From assembly GCF_964355755.1 (NCBI RefSeq), contig NC_092672.1, positions 34,592,501-34,656,500 of the forward strand: 64,000 nucleotides of DNA, read 5' to 3'. Below the pieces are notes generated by a model that was not told the origin of the DNA, did not search any database, and worked only from the letters and a program-made list of their open reading frames with translations. The DNA comes from Antedon mediterranea. Lineage: Eukaryota > Echinodermata > Crinoidea > Comatulida > Antedonidae. Shown here piece after piece: positions 13,465 to 56,781 of this stretch; the first letter of the stretch is position 1; each line of letters opens with the position of its first letter. A program made the translations under genes and the position numbers.

Positions 13465-16400
13465 ATGGGTCATAATATGCAAATAATGTTTTGCATATTG
13501 TTGCAATGTTTATTATTATGTCAGGTTTTAGCTATAGGAAAGGTAATATTTGCAGTAAATTCTGGAGGCCAGGCTCACACAGATGAGAATGGTATTCGAT
13601 ACAACGAAGACACGCTCTCAACCGGTATAGTGTCGGACTACGGTAGAAATATGCAGATAAGTCGAGTGAGGCCTGAAGATATGATTTTGTATCAAACAGA
13701 GCGATACCACGATGAAACATTTGGCTATGATATTCCTCTAAAAGAGGATGGCCGTTATGTTCTTATTTTAAAGTTTTGTGAAGTTTATTTTGCAGCATCA
13801 ATGCAAAAGGTAAATAATACAAAAATAATAATAATAAATATTAATTTATATATAAAAATTATACTAGGCCTATTTTACTACTACTCTACTGTATATAAAA
13901 GTAAGTATACCTTTTTATTAATATTACTTAGCAGCTCTTTAAAGGTGATTTTCCACTAGGCGAATTTGTTTGCGCGAATCGAAGGCGTTAGCTTATACGC
14001 ATGCATAGAGAAGGATTTGGAAGATGGAAACATGAATACGCATGCGTACAAGCTGGCGCTTTCGATTCGCATGAACAAATTCGTCTAGTGGAAAATCGGT
14101 TTCATGTAGGCCTATGTGAGTCCTCTTTCTCCCAATACAATATTATAGGCATCTTACAGTATCAAATTGTATTACAGTATAAAAGTAAATAGAAGTATGG
14201 TAACATATTTTAATCTTTGTTTTATTATTATTGATTAATAACAATTGTATTATTTTCTTTTATGTTTTAACACAGCTACAGTTAAAAAAATATATTGTAA
14301 CAAAATAATTTAAAGTTCATTTATTTGCAATACAATTATATTCTAGTAATTTACAATCATGCTGTAAAATTAAAATATAAAATTAAATATGCCATCTTAA
14401 TGTAGACAATATTAATTATCAATTTACTTCCCTGTTAAATCACTCAATCATTGCAATAACACTCCCTGTCGACTGTTGATTCATAGTACATTTCATCCAT
14501 ATGTTTTATGTTATATATCAATTAATCTATTTAAGTTATAACATGATATTACTTTTCAGAAAAAAACTTAAATTAACTTGTTTGTGTCTTAGAAAACAAA
14601 CAATATGAAAATGGGATTTTTAAAACATTTTTAAATAGTTAATTTTAATATTTCAAATGAGAATTAATTTATTCAAATACATTTCTGTTTATTTTCAATT
14701 TGTTCAAACATTTGCAATCTTTTGATAACCTGAATAGGTTGACAGCTTTATAATTTAATCTCTTGTTGTTCAATTGTTCAAATAAAATAATAAATAGATT
14801 CAATAATTAACTAGGATAGTAAACTGAACTGTAATACAGTTGATCTAATTAGTTAATTAATATTTCAGCTGCAGATAATGTTACACAAATTACAGTAGAA
14901 ATTAGCTTTGTTTTCGATGATGAATTTGTTCTAAAGCTCTGTATCAATAATATCAAACTAGTTTGACAAAAAGTGTGATGTGCCCAAATATGGTAGTGAT
15001 GTGCCCAAATATGGTAGTGATGTGCCCAAATATGGTAGTGATGTGCCCAAATATGGTAGTGATGTGCCCAAATATGGTAGTGATATGCCCAAATATGCAT
15101 TGTTTTGTAACATAAAGTTTGATAGTGTAGACAGCGCTTTAGAATGAACAGATTAATTAGAATTTTAAGACTGGTATAATTAACAAACAATACCAGTATA
15201 TTTACAGATCTTGTTAAATATCAATATAGCTTACGGCCAAGATATTGAACTCATAATGTCAACTTATTATTTATTAACAACAGTATGATTGTTAAAGATG
15301 TATTGTCCCTTGAAACACAAAAAAATGAAGGTCAAAATATACTAAATTTTAATTGGCCACATCAAAGTACAGTAATATTAAAGTTATTCACTTGAAGTCG
15401 AAAATTCAAGCCAAAAACAACAATTTTACGTAATTAACAGCTAAATTTATTTGATTACATTTCGTCTGGAAAATAGTCGCGAGCGAAAGTAAACAAAGAT
15501 TTCAAACCATGAGTATACATTAGGCATGATGCTAATTAGGATTGTTTACAACTTGTAACAGTTAAGAAGGTGTTTTCACACAGATCGCGAGGAAGTTTTA
15601 TGATTATGCATACAGAGTAGCCAAACAAGCGCATTGCATTATGAGATATGTTTTGATCAAAAACTTTGACTGGAAGTCAAAGTTATTTTTTGAACCAAAA
15701 CATTTTTTTTCGACTAATTTTTGGTGAAAGTTAATAACTATTATGATAGTTCAAAATTACCCACTTTTTTTCGAAATAGGTTTTTGATTGGCTTAATTGT
15801 TTTTTTATTTTTCAACAGGTGTTTAACGTTCGAATGAATGGACAACATAATATTGTGACAGATCTAGATATTTACAACAAGGTTGGCAGAGGTACTGCAC
15901 ACGATGAAATCATTCCATTCTCAGTAAGCAAGGGTAAATTAACAGTGAAGGGGGAAGCTTCAACGATTGGAAGCTCACTTTCAGTCGAATTTGTTAAGGT
16001 ATGTAGTCTATTCGTGCCTAGCTTATCTGAATAAACCGACAAAGGCCTTTCACCTCCAAAGGAGAACATAACTCGAAAAATAATAAATCCACATTTCCAA
16101 GACTGTGGTAATGTCAAGTACGCCTATCCATACCTCATCATTCAATTTTGAGAAGTCAAGAGGAAAATGTCGGTTTGTCCTTGTAAGCGGTAACTACTAC
16201 AAACATCAGTTTTGGTTTGTGTAATTAAATTTATATTTAAAATGTGTATAATTTTTATTGTTGGACTTTTGCTATATTTTGTAGTTTACTGTAGAGGAAA
16301 GCAGTGAGCTACTGTATCACTAATCTAGGCTTCTCTCTTTAAAGAAGAACCTAAAACCCTAACAATACAACAGTATACATTGTTATAATTGATTGTTATG

Positions 16401-21885: not shown

Positions 21886-24800
21886 TCAGTCATCTTCAAC
21901 ACTCTCTTCATCAGGGGCACACTGAAAATAAAAGTAATTGACAATTTATTAAAACAAAATGATTATTATTTTATTCAGATCGTCATGTACATTGTGAAAC
22001 ATTGATACCTTTCAAATGTTAACCCTCTGGGCTAAACTCGAAGGGTTACCCTCTTAAGCTTTGTCTATACAGTACTATCAACTTTATGTGACAACAAATG
22101 TGATGTGACAACAAATGTGATGTGCCCATATATGGTTTGATGGTGTAGACAGAGCTTAAGCCTTTTATGGCACAAATAACTGTGCATTATAACATGATTT
22201 TAAAGAGTGGTCTTAATAATATTAATTAATACTTACATAATATTCAACAAATGAGATTTGGCCATCATCATTTTGTATCATGTACTGCAGCGACAGAAAG
22301 CCACGATGGTCTGTTTGGATTGACACTTTACACGAAACCATTAATGCTTTAACAGACGGCTTTAGTAATGTCAATTTGTATCTAAAATATGTGGTGAAAA
22401 TATTTTTACATAAGAATTATATTACATCATTAAACTAATTTATATAGTAAAGCCTTGTGATGTGCCCATATATGGACATGATGATGTCATATCACTACCA
22501 TATTTGGGTATGTCACTACCATATTTGAGCGCATCACACTTTTTTTAGTCAAACTAGTTTGATAGTGTAGACAGAGCTTAAGAAATGGACGTATTCTGAA
22601 TCATTTTGTATGGATCGCCACTCGTTTAGCCATCCTTTTGACAGGGCTGTGATGTATTGGAACACTGGGGTACCTCCTACTCTTCTGAAACATGCACTGG
22701 CCAAAGCTTTGTCTGCATCATATCCATATGGGCACATCACATTTTTTTGTCACATAAAGTTTGACAGTGTAGACAAGGCTTTAGGTTAGGTTGACAAACC
22801 CACTGGTCCTCCAGTTAAACTCTATCTGAGAAAACTTATTCTACCACCAAAATGATAAAGATGAAGTGCCTAGAACCTTTCCTGATCTTATGGCTATGGG
22901 TTGCAGCGCCCTCTGCCGATTTTTCTCTGTCTGTCTCTATTCTGATTTTGTTAGGAGGATCATAAGAATTGATTTGCACTTACAAATAACTAGTTCATTA
23001 AACTTTAATTCCATTAAAACTAATATAAAAAACTAATATTTGTTTAGCCCACTTGATTGAAATAATTAAAGCTCTGTCTACACGATCAAACTAGACAAAA
23101 AAAGTGTGATGTGCCCAAATATGCTTAAATATGGTAATGATATGACATCATCGTGTCCATATATGGGCACATCACACGTTTTTGTCACAAAGTTTGATAG
23201 TGTAGACAGAACTTAATGTTTGTATACTCATGGAGGAGAAAAATGTACTACACACTGACACAGCATTTATTTCCTACAACACAATTAATAGCGTTAACGT
23301 CACAAGATACCTTTATGTAATTGATCACCCTATAAATTCCTTTTTTCTGCGAATTTCATTTTTTTAAGACTTTGCTCTTCAAGTTATTGACCTGCTAAAA
23401 TCGGCCTTTGATTTTCTTTGAATACATAACTCTACTTGGGTAGAGGAAATGGTTATACAGACAAAATATATATGTAATGATGTATATATTATTATTCACA
23501 AGAAATTTACTCATGCGTGAAAGCAGTTATCCCTACTGAGTATAGCCTTGGGAAAATGTTCTACTATGAATTGCTATCCACTGTTTGTCATTGTAAAAAA
23601 AGCCTGAGGAATATTTTCAACTACAGTATATCAATTTATTTGATAATTCATGTAAGGTTGTTGACATGATGGAGTAACTCGATAAGCTTCATTTAAGATT
23701 TTAAAAAAACAACAATTAATTGATATAAAGTACACTAGGAAGATCAAAATCTATACCGATCACGAAGTTCAAAAGGAAATAGAAAACTTAAGAAAACAAT
23801 CCTGCACATAATAGAGGAAAATGGTATGGAAGACATCATTGTCTCAATGACGAGATGAAAGGCGTAACTGATGATAATAAGTGCACACATACACTCACAC
23901 AAGAGTGTGGGGCCCGTGTGGGGATGGAAAATAATCTACACACAAACACATATACATACATAAATAATTTATATCCCACCCATTGCTAAAATGATCTTTA
24001 TATTTAAAGGATGGGAAGCTCTTCGAGACTACTGTAGGCGAAAGGGATTGTACATAACTGTTAAATTTTAAAACTATTATTTTTAATTTTGTATGCAATG
24101 CACACCACCTACTGTATGCATAACAATTGCTATTATAGCCAGTGGAGCAGTAGCCTTCAACTATGAAGTTTGCTCCTAAAGAAGAAGAAAAGGAAACATC
24201 GGATTTGTTGAAGTGAGTGAGGTTAATTTACACTATAAACTGCATTGCAATTTACTCTGTACCCATAAACCTACGGATATAAAGCAGATATATTGTTTCA
24301 ACTCTATGACTTTGACAATTGTAATCTGATTTGTCTTTGGTTTTACATTAACAAGTACTTTATAGCATAAAGCAATGGCATATTAAGTAACCACTAAAGT
24401 CCTGTAATGGAAATCAAGATTTTGGTTGTAACACGGTGTAAGAAATAGTTTTAGATTAGTGAGAAATAGTTTTAGATTAAGGATAGAGTAATTTAATGTG
24501 ATAATTAATGGTAACTGAGATTCTTTGATGGTATTAATTCTTTACATTATCTCAATTTATTGAAATTGTCTATGCAACAGACAACTAAACCTTTTTCAAC
24601 ATGTATGCTATAGGTTAATCTAGATTCAGCTTATATTATTCGTAAACAAATATTTTGGCACACATGGCGTGTCATAACTATAAACTTTAAAAAATAATCA
24701 AAAAGCCAGCAGGTGGTGGTGGTACATAAAAAGATTAAAACAAGATTTCTAGCTAGGTATACACGAAAACATGTTTTTCTGCATGCATTCAACAATGTTC

Positions 24801-27800
24801 AGACTTAAACCCTTTTCACACCTGCAAAAAGTAACAACTTGTAACCAAGTTTCTTTTTGAGGAAAATCTCCAGATAAAAACTGATGAGAGGCCTGTTTTT
24901 TTGTTTGTTTAGATGTTAATGTGCACATGTATATTGCTCTGGTATTAAAGTGACCAATCAGAGTAAGAAGAATTTCTGTTATCATTTTATTAAGATAATG
25001 GTCTAATAAAGCTTAGTATTTTTAGCAACTATGCTTTCTACCAAGATTTCTCACGGTTCACTTATGCGTGTATGAAAACGTGTAATAAATCAGGAGATCA
25101 AACCTGGTAACAACTTGTTACAAGTTGTAACAATTTACGCAATGTGGTGTGGACATGATGATGTCATATCACTACCATATTTGGGCATATCACTACCATA
25201 TTTGGGCACATCACACTTTTTTTTAAAAACTACTTTGAGGTTTAGGCTTACGGTTAAGAATTACCCATTTACCTGTTTAAGTTGGTTTAATGGGTAAACT
25301 TATCACTAACTTGGTTAAGTCAATAACTAAGTCTGAACCGTGTAAAGCTTATTTGAAGGTCTTTATCTGCACTCACCTATTGCTCTGTGCCCATATATAG
25401 TAGTGATATGCTTAAATACGGTATTGATATGACATCATCATGTCCATATATGGGCACATCACATTTTTTTGTCATATAACGTTTGACAGTGTAGGCAGAA
25501 CTTAAGCTAGAACCGTGTACAGTTTATGTTATATTCTTTATCTGTACTCGCCTATTGCTCTGTGCCCATATTATGGTATTGATATGCTTAAATACGGTAT
25601 TGATATGACATCATCATGTCCATATATGGGCACATCACATTTTTTTGTCACATAACGTTTGACAGTGTAGGCAGAACTTAAGCTAGAACCGTGTACAGTT
25701 TATGTTATATTCTTTATCTGTACTCGCCTATTGCTCTGTGCCCATATATAGTAGTGATATGCTTAAATACGGTATTGATATGACATCATCATGTCCATAT
25801 ATGGGCACATCACATTTTTTGTCACATAACGTTTGACAGTGTAGGCAGAACTTAAGCTTGAACCGTGTACAGTTTATTTTATATTCTTTATCTGTACTCA
25901 CCTATTGCTCTGTGCCCATATATAGTAGTGATATGCTTAAATACGGTATTGATATGACATCATCATGTCCATATATGGGCACATCACATTTTTTGTCACA
26001 TAACGTTTGACAGTGTAGGCAGAACTTAAGCTAGAACCGTGTACAGTTTATGTTACATTCTTTATCTGTACTCACCTATTGCTCTGTGCCCATATATAGT
26101 AGTGATATGCTTAAATACGATATTGATATGACATCATCATGTTCATATATGGGCACATCACATTTTTTGTCACATAACGTTTGACAGTGTAGGCAGAACT
26201 TAAGCTTGAACCGTGTACAGTTTATGTTATATTCTTTATCTGTACTCACCTATTGCTCTGTGCCCATATATAGTAGTAATATGCTTAAATACGGTATTGA
26301 TATGACATCATCATGTCCATATATGGGCACATCACATTTTTTGTCACATAACGTTTGACAGTGTAGGCAGAACTTGAAGCTTTGTCTACACTATCAAACT
26401 TTATGTGTCAAAAAAATGTGATGTGCCCATATATAGACATGATGATGTCATATCACTACCATATGTAAGCATAGTTCTACCATATTTGGGCACATCAAAC
26501 TTTTTTGACACATAAAGTTTGACAGTGTAGACAGAACTTAAGCTTGAACCGTGTACAGTTTATTTTATATTCTTTATCTGTACTCACCTATTGCTCTGAG
26601 TCTGAGTGCATTGAAATGACTCTATCAGATCACTCTCTCTTGGGAAATCTGACTGAAATGTAAGAAATTGCCTACATTATATTTATAATGCTATTTTATT
26701 TATTACATATCAATACAACAACTGTATTATATTTTTATTAATGAGCTACATAACATTATTGTCAATGTTACATTATATTATACCGAGATGGTAGACGGAG
26801 GATGACCTACAGTTAAGCTCTGTCTACACTATCAAACTATGCAACAAAAAATGTGACCATATATGGACATGATGATGTCATATTAATATCATATTTAAGC
26901 ATATCACTACCATATTTGGGTACATCATACTTTCTTTTGTCAAATTAGTTTTATAGGAAGTGTAGACAGAGCTTTATGCCTACAGATAAGGAACGCAACA
27001 GTGTATACTGGGCTACACACATGCATTAATTTATCTTTTGTACTCATCACTTCTTCTTTATATACCGTCCTAAAAAACTGAAAACTATTACTCACACAGC
27101 AGAAATAGGTGTTTTTTTTTAAATAAAATTTTGTTAAGATATAATACTGTAGTAAATTATCTTTTTTTTTAAACATTATTTTTTAAACTTTGTTATTGAC
27201 TGAGCTGAAGGAAGGACATCATTTTGATTTATGAAAGAGGAATTTAAATATTATAGTTATTATCAAATACTAAACATACTTTTAGCATTGGCTAATTAAG
27301 GCATAAGTGACCACACAAGTACACTGCACGTAACTTATGAATTTTTATGTTGTGTATGCAATTATGTAATGCATATTTTTCTACATTTTACTCAGTAATG
27401 GATATTGCTAACTGTGTAAAAGCTTCTATACTTCCTTAAGGTATATTACTATCAATTTGTTCAATATACAGGATAGCATGCTTTATGTATACACAAATCT
27501 ACAATAATAAGATTGAAACAACTTTATAAGAACACTGTACAGTATATCCTCAGGTATACAGTAATCCCACTTCAGGTCTAATCCCACCCCTTACTTTATG
27601 TCTGATTTCACAAACAGGCATATCCCGGTCTTATAGACATACGTATAGTCCCAGTATTGACATTTGGTCTGGATCTATAGGCCTCTTTTGTTTTTTACAA
27701 TACTTATCAATTGTTTTTGTCCTGAACCAGGGTTTTCCCGCGTATAGTCCCACCACCCAAATTTGGCTGATATTGTGTTCTACTAGGAGAAGGGGGTGGT

Positions 27801-35590: not shown

Positions 35591-36562
35591 CAAACATTAA
35601 GCATTTACTATTTATTTGATTTTACTTCGTTTTCTATTCTTTTTTATGTCTAGACGCAGGTGTTACTTAATGAAACGCTATAACAATGATTTGTGTTTAA
35701 ACTACGCGTGGATAAGAATGATAGAATCTAATGTACGAATAATTTGAAACACAATGACAAGGTTATGCATCGAAATACAATTGAAATGCAGTGAGTTCAC
35801 AAACATGTGAAGGAAAGGAAATTAATAGAGATAAGTTAAATTATACCCTAAAGGCACAGTTATTTAGGATAATATTGAAAAGAAATCACATAATTACGTA
35901 TTTTTGTCAGTTTTTAACGGCATTCAATTCATCATTTTATTATATTTATCGTATACATAACCTATAATGTTTAAGACTGTTTTTATGTTCCTATTGATAT
36001 TAATTTTACTATAAATAAAATGATAGTTCATTATGTTTTTGTAAATGAGTTATTTTATTATTACCATCAATCACCATTGCCCCAATTTTCTTAACCTCTG
36101 ATGTTATTGCTTCTAACATGTACTTTATAATCAATAATAAATGTTGATTAGGAAAGAAATGGTGGTTCTTGAATTGTATAGCAATTTTATTAATACAAGT
36201 CACACCAAACCATCTGAAACATTAGTTATTTGGCGCGCTTAAAAACAGGCGCGGACGCGGATCCAACTTGTGGTGTGGCTCATGTACTCAATCTCTCGGT
36301 CTGGCACATATTGAAAATATCTATAAACGATTTGGAAACTATACTAATTGTTATTACTACCATGCATCGTTGCTTCCTTATGCTTGCTCATATACTTCTA
36401 ATTACTGCTACTCTGGGGCGTTCCATACTTGCTACTTGTTGCTATACGACTCGTACAGAGTATCGCAGTACAGAATAATAGTAGGGCAAACCAAGGACGA
36501 ATGCGTGAGTGAACAAGGCCATATACATGGCTGCATTCGCGTGCTCAAGTTATAGTGTTTAA

Positions 36563-38100
36563 GGCTGGTTTCCTGTCGACGTAAGAACATCACTTTTGTT
36601 GCGACTACGTCGATTTGTCGTAAGAAATGCGGATTTTACAGGAAACCGATTACGATCGAAAATTTATAAAATCGACGCAACGTAAGAAAAATGGTAACGA
36701 CAAACGATTTTACAGGAAACCGATGACCTAACCATTGTTGCGTTACGACGTTTTCTTCCGATTTTACAGGAAACCGGGATTTTTTATCTTACGCTTGAAT
36801 GAACGCCCTTGCGTCATGTTTCTTACGTCTCTTACGAAAGTTGACTTGAAGTCAACTTTCGCAAGAGACGTAAGCGCAATCGTAACAAGTAACCAATGAG
36901 CGACAAGAGTTATGACGTAATGTGTATGTCCTTATAGTGAAATAAAGCCGGACAATAACATTTGTATGTATTTACTACTATAATTTTAGCCTAATCATGT
37001 TCTAATCAGGGAGTTTTAGGGTTGAGGGATGGGAAAGCGGATAGATGCAAAGAGGAACAATTTTTAAATATATTCTTTATGCACTCAGTAACGAAATATT
37101 TTTTTCATGTTTTATAGGCCTATAAATAATATACCTCTAAATACAGTAAAATATTTGCGATTTAATACTTTGTTAAAACTGTCACTGTCATAATCGATTG
37201 AAATATAGTCACGATACACCACTACGACGTTTATATTTTTGGTAATTATTAATTAATACAAACGTTGTTGAGAAGGAACTGTCAGTATAGGTTATTTGTA
37301 TATAATAATGTGTTAATGTGTCAACTTTCGTAAGAGACGTAAGAAACGTATGATGTCGACAGGAAACCAGCCCTATACTGACAGTTCCTTCTCAACAACG
37401 TTTGTATTAATTAATAATTACCAAAAATATAAACGTCGTAGTGGTGTATCGTGACTATATTTCAATCGATTATGACAGTGACAGTTTTAACAAAGTATTA
37501 AATCGCAAATATTTTACTGTATTTAGAGGTATATTATTTATAGGCCTATAAAACATGAAAAAAATATTTCGTTACTGAGTGCATAAAGAATATATTTAAA
37601 AATTGTTCCTCTTTGCATCTATCCGCTTTCCCATCCCTCAACCCTAAAACTCCCTGATTAGAACATGATTAGGCTAAAATTATAGTAGTAAATACATACA
37701 AATGTTATTGTCCGGCTTTATTTCACTATAAGGACATACACATTACGTCATAACTCTTGTCGCTCATTGGTTACTTGTTACGATTGCGCTTACGTCTCTT
37801 GCGAAAGTTGACTTCAAGTCAACTTTCGTAAGAGACGTAAGAAACATGACGCAAGGGCGTTCATTCAAGCGTAAGATAAAAAATCCCGGTTTCCTGTAAA
37901 ATCGGAAGAAAACGTCGTAACGCAACAATGGTTAGGTCATCGGTTTCCTGTAAAATCGTTTGTCGTTACCATTTTTCTTACGTTGCGTCGATTTTATAAA
38001 TTTTCGATCGTAATCGGTTTCCTGTAAAATCCGCATTTCTTACGACAAATCGACGTAGTCGCAACAAAAGTGATGTTCTTACGTCGACAGGAAACCAGCC
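36563..38100. repeat. 1538-bp fold-back palindrome (729-bp arms, 80-bp spacer)
   Basis: The left arm 36563-37291 and right arm 37372-38100 are reverse complements, with no indel (paired positions sum to 74663 throughout) and no mismatch noticed by eye. The arm end is GGCTGGTTTCCTGTCGACGT. The spacer ends with the same terminal sequence inverted (GTCGACAGGAAACCAGCC, 37355-37372), so 36563-37372 looks like one about 810-bp TIR element and the right arm like an inverted copy missing its last 80 bp. GATTTTACAGGAAACCG recurs three times per arm. No protein-coding frame. TTAA flanks the left end only. Confidence 0.95.
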
Positions 38101-38968
38101 TACTGACCCACCGAACAATCGACCAACCGACCGACATAGTGAGCTGTAGAGTCGCGTTGCACACGACTAAAAATCAACTTAAAACAACAGCATTTCTTTA
38201 AGAGAAAATGAAGAACACTCCATTATTGCAACTTCCCAAAGTTAATCCTTCCAAGCGAACCGCATCTTATTATCAATATCCTTAAATGCGGCGAAATGTT
38301 CAACTATTATTCATCTAATGTCTTGAATATTGTATGTTATGTAGAAAATGTAATTATGTTGCTTGCACTTGACCTTTGACACGCAAAAGTGACTCCTTTG
38401 TTGCCAGAATGCAATATGTCTCATGTTTGTTTGTAATGGAAAATGAGCTGAATTTCTAAGATGTTTTTCGGTCGGTGGAAGTTGTGTTAGAGCGTGGTTT
38501 TTGCCTAATAAATTCGATGTGATGGGACTTGAATAATTGCAGCAGAAAAAAGTTGATTAAATTGATGAATGTATAGAAAATACATTACCTAAATGTGCTC
38601 ATGAGATACATATATCGGTGTATAAACCGAATTTGTGTATATCATGCCTCACGTTGCTTCACAATGTGCCATGATGGGAAATTAGTACAGTAGGGCCTAC
38701 GTGTGAACAACGTCATGTGATGGATTTTAAATACTGAGCAACAGTATTTTCTATAGTTGTCTCTAACGTGTATCTTAATCTATTTATGAAGTAAAACAGA
38801 TTGATAAATGACAACTGGTAATCCAGGCGGTTTTTTCAATTTAAAGCAGACTATTACATCATTTGCATGATGACCCACCTGCTTCTCCTAATCCACCTGT
38901 CTGGAAAATGTAAAGTCATTTGATGTCAAGTCAAGTTCAGTATAGTAAAGTAAAGCGTGGTTCTCACT

Positions 38969-40983: not shown

Positions 40984-41599
40984 CTTTAAATACCTTTGAA
41001 TAACAAATTACTGTTAAAATAACGAGGCCTAACAACTCAGATTTCCTTGGAAGAACCAGGCCTAAACATTTAAGAACAAGCGCTTTATTTCCCGGGGACG
41101 TTACATCAGCTCAGACACGCTCCTTTGAGAGGCATACGCGAGGTCAATTCTCAGATCAAAATGTGAATTTTAGAGAAGACGAAGGCTTTTGAATAAGTTT
41201 ATTTTGATCCATTTTCGCCAACATCTGGTAAAATAATTATATCATATACTCTTTAATGTTTTGGTTTTAAATTGACGGACGGAGCCAAGGACTTTAAATA
41301 CCTTTGAATAACAAATTACTGTTAAAATAACGAGGCCTAACAACTCAGATTTCCTTGGAAGAACCAGGCCTAAACATTTAAGAACAAGCGCTTTATTTCC
41401 CGGGGACGTTACATCAGCTCAGACACGCTCCTTTGAGAGGCATACGCGAGGTCAATTCTCAGATCAAAATGTGAATTTTAGAGAAGACGAAGGCTTTTGA
41501 ATAAGTTTATTTTGATCCATTTTCGCCAACATCTGGTAAAATAATTATATCATATACTCTTTAATGTTTTGGTTTTAAATTGACGGACGGAGCCAAGGA
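40984..41599. repeat. Exact-looking 2 x 308-bp tandem duplication
   Basis: Units 40984-41291 and 41292-41599 read the same from CTTTAAATACCTTTGAATAA to GACGGACGGAGCCAAGGA, with no difference noticed. No ORF or recognisable element inside. A recent local duplication or an assembly duplication. Confidence 0.95.
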
Positions 41600-42771: not shown

Positions 42772-43318
42772 TGATATTGGCAGCAACATAACGATCATCA
42801 TCGAAATTATCACCATCTTCATCACCATCATTATCATTATCATCACCATCGAAATTATTATTATCATCATCATCTTCATTATTATCATCACCACCACCAC
42901 TATCATCATTATCATCAATACCTTTATCATTATCATCATTGTCATCATGATCACCATCATTATCATCATCTTCATCATTATCATCTTCACCACCACCATC
43001 ATCATCATCATTATCATCATCCCTATCATCTTCGTCATCATCATTATCATCATCATCAAAATTATCATCATCTTCATCACCATCTGTATCATCATCACCA
43101 TCATCATCCTCATCATAAACCATCATCATCATCATCTTCATCACCATCATCATCTTCATCACCATCATCATCTTCATCACCATCATTATCATCATCACCA
43201 TCATCATCCTCATCATAAACCATCATCATCATCATCTTCATCACCATCATCATCTTCATCACCATCATCATCTTCATCACCATCATCATCACCGTCATTG
43301 TAATCATCAATATCATGA
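42772..43318. repeat. ATC/ATT trinucleotide-rich microsatellite, about 550 bp
   Basis: Interrupted (ATC)n with ATT, ACC and TTC variants, including a larger internal repeat (CATCATCATCTTCATCACCA) with a 15-bp period. Its long Asp/Met/Ile/Ser frames on both strands are artefacts of the triplet. Confidence 0.95.
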
Positions 43319-43811
43319 TCATCGAGAGAATATTCTAAAATGTTACAGTAGATATAATACATACATTCTTGATTTCCTTTCGTCGAGTTTAATTGAACAA
43401 AATGCTAAAATCTAACTACAATTCATCTTGGACATACAGAAGATGATATTTTATATTTTCTCGGTTGCCATGCCAAATAAGGTGGTTAAACTGCTTTTAA
43501 TTTATGAAGTCAATTATTAACAGCGTAGAAACTGTTATATAGATTTAAATCGGATCGTAATTGTACGTGTTTATAATCATCGTAAATAATTTGTTCGAGC
43601 TCTCTCAGTGCGAAAACAATCAGTTTAATTGGCAAAAAGGACAGCAAAACAGAGAGATAAGTAGGCCTACACCTGGTCTACATTTTAGAGCAATTTCACG
43701 CGTATGGTTCATTGTCACAGCATCGCGTCTAATTTGTTTACAGCGCGCGCGGCGCGCGGCGGGAGGGAGGCGTCATGGTTTATCTGTCCGACAGTACAGT
43801 ACAATCTTATA

Positions 43812-55290: not shown

Positions 55291-56424
55291 ATGGAGCAAT
55301 ACGCCCCGACGCAATCAGCGTTAGAGATAGAGAACATTACGGCCAACACGACGACGCTGTCATACGCCGAAGCACCGACGTTTACCGAGGTTGATAAACT
55401 GATTATAACAGTTTTCATGCCAATAGTAGTGACTGTTGGAATAACTGGTAACATTGCTATTATTATTGTATTCTTACGCATCAAACCAATGCGAACGTCT
55501 ATGAACATATATCTGGCGAATCTAGCTTTAGCGGATCTAATGTACCTGACGAACGCACCAGTTACAATCTGGAAAGTGTTCGCAGCCGGCGACCTTAACG
55601 AAGACAGTGCAATCAGTTTGTTTTACTGCAAGCTAAATACGTTTCTTGTGGATGTTAGTTTTCACGTCAGCTCTTTGACAATTCTGGCGTTAACACTGGA
55701 GAGATATTTTGTTGTCTGTTGGCCATTGAGGTTTAAGACAACCAACGTGAGACCGATAGCGATTGGTGCAACGCTTTGTTGCTGGGGTGTATCATTTGTT
55801 TGGAACTCGCGTAAACTGGCTTTTACCGGTTTTAAGCATTATCGAAATATGATGCATGAAGGAGAGTTGGTTGATATTACATATTGTACGTATTATTCAA
55901 CTAGGCATCCCGGTGAAGAAATCTTGCACACTATTGACGCCTCGTTGTTTTTCGTCGTCGCTGTAACCATTTTCATTCTGTATTTCTTGATGATTTCAAT
56001 GATGCAGAAGATGTCACGGACGCAGAGAACCTTATCGCGTTCCTTTATGGTGAAACACAGAGCTCAGCATAAGATATTGAGAATGCTTATACTCACTGTC
56101 ACAGTATACATCTTATGTCTAAGCCCTTTCCAGGTAATTAACTTGATCTCAATTCATGGAGACTTGCACCCAGATGCTGCCGGAATTTTGATAAATCTTT
56201 GTCGGTGTCTACTCTATATAAACTCGGCGGCAAATCCATTTATTTATAATGTATTTAATATTAAGTACAGGGAAGCGTTTGTGGAATGTTTTTGCAGTTT
56301 TCCAGGAAAAAAGCTTAGTAGAACTTACACAAGAACCAATGAGCTATCGCCACGTAGGACGCAGACGATGTTGACGAAAATGAACAGTAACAAATCAACA
56401 ACATCAAACTACAACAACAACTGA
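55291..56424 (+). CDS. Rhodopsin-class G protein-coupled receptor, neuropeptide type (ghrelin/TRH/neuromedin-U-like group)
   Basis: A single ORF of 377 residues with seven hydrophobic segments; by family it would be a plasma-membrane peptide receptor. Visible class-A landmarks: N-glycosylation sequons NIT (15) and NTT (19); GN at 53-54 in TM1; LALAD in TM2 (D82); C113 before TM3, to pair with C199 in loop 2; ERY at 137-139 at the end of TM3; W165 in TM4; LCLSPF (275-280) in TM6 in place of CWxPF; NPFIY (315-319) in TM7. TM5 (about 213-238) shows no proline at the usual place. The cytoplasmic tail is Ser/Thr/Asn-rich. ATG 55291 is preceded by a pyrimidine-rich AG ending at 55269, probably the acceptor of a 5'-UTR intron, so the promoter may lie far upstream. 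The last 30 codons are the first unit of a tandem repeat. The peptide-receptor assignment is by motif resemblance; the ligand is unknown. Confidence 0.9.
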   Translation: MEQYAPTQSALEIENITANTTTLSYAEAPTFTEVDKLIITVFMPIVVTVGITGNIAIIIVFLRIKPMRTSMNIYLANLALADLMYLTNAPVTIWKVFAAGDLNEDSAISLFYCKLNTFLVDVSFHVSSLTILALTLERYFVVCWPLRFKTTNVRPIAIGATLCCWGVSFVWNSRKLAFTGFKHYRNMMHEGELVDITYCTYYSTRHPGEEILHTIDASLFFVVAVTIFILYFLMISMMQKMSRTQRTLSRSFMVKHRAQHKILRMLILTVTVYILCLSPFQVINLISIHGDLHPDAAGILINLCRCLLYINSAANPFIYNVFNIKYREAFVECFCSFPGKKLSRTYTRTNELSPRRTQTMLTKMNSNKSTTSNYNNN

Positions 56425-56781
56425 ACCAATGAGCTATCGCCACGTGGTACGCAGACGATGTTGACGAAAATGAACAGTAACAAATTAACAACATCAAACT
56501 ACAACAACAACTGAACCAATGAGCTATCGCCACGTAGGAGGCAGACGATGTTGACGAAATGAACAGTAACAAATCAACAATATCAAACTACAACAACAAT
56601 TGAACCAATGAGCTATCGCAACGTGGTACGCAGACGATGTTGACGAAATGAACAGTAACAAATCAACAATATCAAACTACAACAACAATTGAACCAATGA
56701 GCTATCGCAACGTGGTACGCAGACGATGTTGACGAAATGAACAGTAACAAATCAACAACATCAAACTACAACAACAATTGA
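56334..56781 (+). repeat. Five-unit tandem repeat covering the GPCR tail and stop codon (90/90/89/89/90 bp)
   Basis: Units begin AACCAATGAGCTATCGCCAC at 56334, 56424, 56514, 56603 and 56692. The first encodes the receptor's last residues and its TGA. Units 2-5 lie in the 3' UTR and each keep a TGA at the same place. Units 1-3 are 90 bp (in phase); units 3 and 4 have lost one A, shifting frame. Confidence 0.95.

Follow-up and report, generated by a model that had tools for sequence, protein, structure and literature searches.

How does a 5′ splice site come to be repeated six times, in tandem, within the very intron that it opens, and what do such copies do to the splicing of their gene? We address this question at a locus of the crinoid Antedon mediterranea, in a stretch of 64,000 nucleotides (hereafter the window) on contig NC_092672.1; the assembly comprises 354 Mb in 18 contigs. 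RAD1, a subunit of the 9-1-1 checkpoint clamp, is encoded on the minus strand of the window. An earlier note on this DNA had described the 5′ splice site of RAD1 exon 6 as copied within the following intron and fused to a MITE, and had suggested that a word common to the exon and the MITE seeded the fusion.

The exon 6 splice site and its copies

The joined exon translations matched RAD1 chains of solved structure in a PDB search (E = 6e-88), and all four matches to Pfam Rad1 in the whole assembly fall at this locus. The reading frame runs on from exon 6 into exon 7 through a split R codon (AG|A), and at this join the alignment with a solved RAD1 chain is unbroken. Exon 6 lies between introns of about 1.26 kb and 4.2 kb, the latter being intron 6 (4,206 bp), and on the minus strand it ends in CAGAGCAATAG|GTGAGT. 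Within the window, CAGAGCAATAG occurs seven times on the minus strand and not at all on the plus strand. The 17-mer that includes the donor, CAGAGCAATAGGYGAGT with either GT or GC, occurs seven times across the 354-Mb assembly, all within 1.3 kb at RAD1 and on one strand; neither the opposite strand nor a reversed control pattern gave a single occurrence in the whole assembly. These seven occurrences are the real site and six copies in intron 6 (Table 1). GT is retained in four of the six, the fourth and fifth copies having GC, and four copies match the real sequence exactly from 11 bases before the cut to 6 after it. A search of the assembly with exon 6 and the start of its intron (115 bp) likewise returned seven matches, the real site and its six copies. 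We also looked beyond this locus for a second exon block that could have been the source; neither the 17-mer nor the exon-plus-intron search found one, and a further scan scored 40 of 1,296 candidates, mostly MITE copies.

Table 1. Features of RAD1 exons 6 and 7 and of the array in intron 6, in positions of the window. Donor, dinucleotide and first intron base; distance, nt downstream of the real donor; differences, from the real block of 60 nt (11 exon and 49 intron bases).
Feature	Positions	Strand	Donor	Distance	Differences	Remarks
RAD1 exon 6 (65 nt)	26588..26652	-				Reads SDFPRESDLIESFQCTQTQSN and the first two bases of the R codon; identity from PDB and Pfam Rad1
Real exon 6 donor, GTGAGT	26582..26587	-	GT, 26587			
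First 49 intron bases	26539..26587	-				End in TTA (MITE target site); copied in every unit
Full-length MITE, other subfamily	26378..26538	+				At TTA, between intron block and first unit MITE
Unit MITE copy 1 (114 bp)	26261..26374	-				Ends in TGGGCA; lacks right terminus
Unit 1 (174 bp)	26087..26260	-	GT, 26249	338	1	11 exon bases, donor, intron block and MITE
Unit 2 (174 bp)	25913..26086	-	GT, 26075	512	3	
Unit 3 (174 bp)	25739..25912	-	GT, 25901	686	0	Block identical to real block
Unit 4 (176 bp)	25563..25738	-	GC, 25727	860	3	
Unit 5 (175 bp)	25388..25562	-	GC, 25551	1,036	3	
Outermost half-unit	25328..25387	-	GT, 25376	1,211	9	11 exon bases, donor and diverged block ending in TTA
Older decayed MITE fragment	25150..25222	+				Farther down the intron, outside the array
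RAD1 exon 7	22237..22381	-				

TRF reports a single array at 25334-26598, with a period of 174 and 7.3 copies. Each of the five full units joins 11 bases of exon to 49 of intron, the latter ending in TTA, and these in turn to 114-116 bp of a MITE, which begins AGTTCTGCCTACACTGTCAAAC and breaks off at TGGGCA; all six junctions between MITE and exon fall at the same base. Compared with one another, copies of the unit MITE show 0-6 differences over aligned positions and the inner five blocks 0-3. The first spacing is 338 bp because an additional, full-length MITE (26378-26538) separates the real donor block from the first unit MITE. The length of the array is that given in one assembly. Together, the 17-mer and exon-plus-intron searches, the alignments and the PDB match uphold the gene, the exon, the copied donor and the MITE fusion as the earlier note had them; its count of six copies, four with GT and two with GC, is borne out by the 17-mer, and its donor coordinates refer to the same hexamers, given by their low ends. 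It had further described six units of 175 bp, and six MITE-to-exon junctions are indeed present, but only five units are full, the sixth copy being a half-unit.

Other repeats occur elsewhere in the window. A near-perfect palindrome of 1.5 kb (36562-38101), 97% self-complementary over 1,550 aligned bases, is probably a fold-back element. At 40984-41599 a 308-bp unit is tandemly duplicated with 100% identity, as either a very recent event or an assembly duplication. An 89-bp unit is repeated five times at 56333-56781 (95% matches), and an imperfect ATC tract of 530 bp (70% matches) lies at 42794-43323, in a stretch of strong GC skew.

Origin of the array

On sequence grounds the element in the units belongs to the PIF/Harbinger-type MITEs, having terminal repeats and a 3-bp TWA target site, which we take to be the mark of that superfamily. 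Forty-one loci were put through a pattern script that found both ends in 21; identical 3-bp target sites flank 12 of these 21 (TAA in seven, TTA in five). Copies with AGCTCTGTCTACACTATCAAACT-like sequence at both ends, as read by eye, are about 160 bp long. Genome-wide, first-look searches gave 1,296 and 4,121 candidates, and the copies read comprised 20 others, seven deletion-junction sites and 14 matches of a second subfamily (one of which, L045, by its flank only). Against the consensus of these 20 other copies, the unit MITE shows 8 differences in 114 aligned positions (JC 0.074; 95% CI of p 0.03-0.13), a rough measure of age since these copies were selected as good matches to the unit. 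A 21-bp motif from inside the MITE has expanded to 5.9 copies at 14975-15097 of the window (99% matches), and repeats of it are also present in several further MITE copies.

We favour, with moderate confidence, a course in which a MITE seeded a minisatellite that took in the RAD1 exon 6 5′ splice site, through exchange between alleles and subsequent expansion to a near-silent array. On one allele, a PIF/Harbinger-type MITE would have inserted at a TTA lying 49 bases inside intron 6. An illegitimate exchange with an allele free of the MITE, or a template switch to it during replication, would then have joined the MITE, at CA or CAGAGC, to the end of exon 6, giving in a single event an array of two copies of which the last was empty and diverged. 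One such exchange would account at once for the truncation of the MITE, for the duplication of the exon end with its donor, and for a last copy that is empty and of the other sequence type. The array may subsequently have grown to five full units, and its copies become homogenised, by unequal exchange in which the real donor block also took part; a MITE of the other subfamily would have inserted later at the TTA beside that block.

The outermost copy differs from the real site at 9 of 49 intron positions (18%) and runs past CTTA into unique intron with no MITE directly after it. Judged by an alignment that ends at TTA, it looks like an empty insertion site; the bases that follow (GTTATTG) loosely resemble the end of the MITE (AGTTCTG). 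The two types of intron block, A and B, differ at 9/49 positions (JC 0.21, or about 0.105 on each lineage; 95% CI of p 0.09-0.32), which is compatible with the divergence of the unit MITE from its consensus, as would be expected if the split came while the insertion was young. A value of 18% is large for alleles, so on the proposed course part of it must postdate the exchange. The identity of the unit 3 block with the real block points to exchange that included the real site.

The same outermost sequence could have come about on a single allele, a route that we consider rather unlikely. Here one MITE insertion would have been followed by tandem duplication, through slippage or microhomology repair, of the segment from the end of exon 6 to the middle of the MITE, and the outermost MITE would later have been precisely excised. 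Excision leaving one TTA would give what is observed, and as it needs both termini it would spare the unit copies, which lack the right end. This route requires one extra event, however, and by itself leaves unexplained why the outermost intron block has diverged so much further than the equally terminal real block (nine differences against 0-3).

The extent of homology at the join depends on the state of the inserted MITE. The junction reads ...TGGGCA/CAGAGC and has 2 bp (CA) in common with the undeleted MITE (...TGGGCACATCACA...); had the RAD1 insertion been a derivative with a deleted right end, the overlap would be the full 6 bp CAGAGC. Exact TATWTGGGCACAGAGC occurs at 12 sites in the assembly, five in the array and seven outside. 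All seven outside sites have a TTA within the next 6 nt and four show the left terminal repeat in the 150 nt displayed per site, so that at least some of them read as MITEs with a deleted right end. Allowing one mismatch gave 61 sites, six of them in the array, against three for a reversed control; of those outside the array, 48 have one mismatch, and the seven exact sites were the ones read. These seven (L037-L043) have the same junction near the right end of the MITE (GGGCACAGAGC), perhaps a recurrent deletion between short ACA repeats. L009, of the 20 copies read the nearest to the unit MITE, is undeleted; this does not favour a deleted derivative as the origin of a 6-bp overlap, and by eye none of the seven deleted-end GGGCACAGAGC sites is specially close to the unit MITE. 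As a rough estimate, homologies of 2 bp and 6 bp are about equally likely. The microhomology proposed in the earlier note (GCTCTG/CAGAGC) is possible, extending to 6 bp if the MITE was a deleted derivative but to 2 bp if it was undeleted.

The full-length MITE beside the real donor block is flanked on the minus strand by TTA and TCA, and its orientation is opposite to that of the unit MITE. Its best match elsewhere, among 40 scored of 4,121 candidates, is 98% identical over positions 1-157 and belongs to the other subfamily. We infer that this MITE arrived after the units; as their source it is ruled out by its opposite orientation and different subfamily. Its exon-side 18 bases, counted by hand, show one difference from the unit MITE, against four from its closest match (L044) and two from L052-L056, which suggests that this end is a conversion patch between the neighbouring MITEs. 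L044 and a second match, L045, lie about 65 kb apart on C9 (98% and 97%) and have an identical left flank of 15 bp, suggestive of a local duplication.

A misassembled or miscounted repeat, to which arrays of 174-bp units are prone, is very improbable here, given units that differ among themselves, distinct array ends, a window without Ns and flanking RAD1 exons found in order.

Predicted consequences for RAD1 splicing

U1 snRNP should pair equally well with the real site and with the four GT copies. Under exon definition the upstream of near-equal sites is preferred, according to the accessible text of PMC9225289. In equal-strength competitions the same text puts that preference at only 60% overall, which makes some leakage to the copies plausible (PMC9225289). 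Exon 6, at 65 nt and with long flanking introns, should be recognised across the exon, so that the upstream, real site is predicted to win and the copies to leave with the excised intron; each copy is preceded by only 11 exon bases. Use of a copy would extend exon 6 by at least 338 nt, and read-through from the real junction meets a TGA directly after the R codon (SNR*), so transcripts spliced at a copy should fall to nonsense-mediated decay. We also considered recursive (ratchet) splicing and micro-exons at the copies and set both aside on inspection: TATATATGGGCACAGAGCAATAG comes without a pyrimidine tract, and by eye a convincing acceptor is absent. Our prediction is that the array is most likely tolerated and near-silent, with some leakage possible.

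We doubt that the copies are instead active decoys, competing for U1 or for the exon 7 acceptor and lowering or tuning RAD1 mRNA through unproductive extension of exon 6. Such a role would be served by four exact GT copies with 11 identical exon bases, by the confinement of AGGTRAG to the array between the donor and the end of exon 7, and by the immediate stop that follows decoy use. It sits poorly with copies that lack a full exon before them and lie 338-1,211 nt downstream, and with the exon-definition rule, which in the portion of PMC9225289 available favours the upstream site. Nor does variation single out the donors: across the real and five inner blocks, one column is variable in the 17 exon-end and donor positions against three in the other 43, and the exon end and donor show no clear extra conservation over the rest of the block. 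In the outermost copy none of the nine differences falls in the first 17 positions (P = 0.038 under random placement), a weak sign of selection on the copied donors that constraint on the real site would also explain.

RNA folding adds no support for near-silence, and the predictions run partly against it. The real donor is the most open in 80-nt windows (mean unpaired 0.54, against 0.19-0.52 for the copies), middling in 150-nt windows (0.25 against 0.19-0.47) and closed in 300-nt windows (0.23). At this last length openness is greater at the first three GT copies (0.59, 0.55 and 0.55), a point in favour of active decoys. When all 1,452 nt are folded together, the real donor comes out mostly paired while the donors at 26075 and 25901 stay mostly open. 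The later MITE and the inverted first unit MITE form a predicted hairpin of -168.5 kcal/mol (z -18.9; exon bases left out of the fold). Standing between the real donor and the first copy, this hairpin might hold the real site apart from the copies.

A further reading, which we put forward as speculation and think quite improbable, treats the real RAD1 donor as itself a member of the array that exchanges sequence with the copies, array length and the MITE hairpin together setting how much U1 is diverted and how much unproductive mRNA is made. If this were true, the site in use could be replaced by a copy, for example by a GC donor, and the array would be a rheostat on a checkpoint gene that varies with copy number. 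AATAAA occurs six times from the donor through exon 7, at 26564 and 25878 within the array region; that U1 at the copies might protect the transcript from premature polyadenylation is an idea only.

Comparison with known systems

The IFI6 minisatellite units are reportedly short, at 12 bp (in a 1995 paper); those at RAD1 differ in being 174-176 bp long, mostly transposon, intronic and interrupted by stops. The likeness lies in a tandem repeat at the end of an exon whose units carry donor sites, as far as the accessible account of IFI6 goes: at RAD1, five units and a half-unit carry CAGAGCAATAG with GTGAGT or GCGAGT. In human IFI6, that account has minisatellite units acting as splice donors (PMC4526556; title also cited in PMC2572611), with two downstream repeat units used as donors (PMC4526556).

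The Xenopus elements Xstir and miDNA4 resemble the RAD1 array in that a MITE takes part in the birth of a tandem repeat (PMC12628747, in the excerpts available). Xstir repeats are proposed there to derive from sequence within a MITE, and miDNA4 to have captured an existing repeat (PMC12628747). By contrast, the RAD1 unit joins a MITE to host exon and intron from its own insertion site.

New introns are reported to arise when a tandem duplication spans an exon-intron boundary, in the parts of the sources that were accessible, with the AGGT model of Rogers and potato RdRp as cases (PMC4974935) alongside human internal tandem repeats (PMC2812944). As far as these parts go, RAD1 has in common with them a tandem duplication with AG|GT across an exon-intron boundary; it differs in that its copies lie inside an existing intron and lack, on inspection, a convincing acceptor. 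Intron gain by AGGT duplication can be set aside at this locus, where the copies lie within intron 6 and exons 6 and 7 are in frame and unbroken against solved RAD1 chains. Introners, too, associate a transposon with a splice site (PMC9860276, as partly available). The RAD1 MITE, unlike those in the available description, brought no donor; at a single place, the host donor was copied and fused to a MITE. An introner, with many dispersed intron-creating copies, is excluded by the occurrence of the donor 17-mer at a single locus in the assembly.

A search for a published MITE-joined array of a copied 5′ splice site found none, in a literature of which the subscription part was thinly covered. 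Events of this kind are already known; what appears new is that a host donor has been fused to a MITE and repeated in tandem within the intron, with the real block near-identical to its copies. The locus offers a natural experiment on the choice that the spliceosome makes among identical 5′ splice sites, one with its exon and the copies without. It also suggests that a transposon landing beside an exon may convert a working splice site into one member of a repeat that undergoes concerted evolution.
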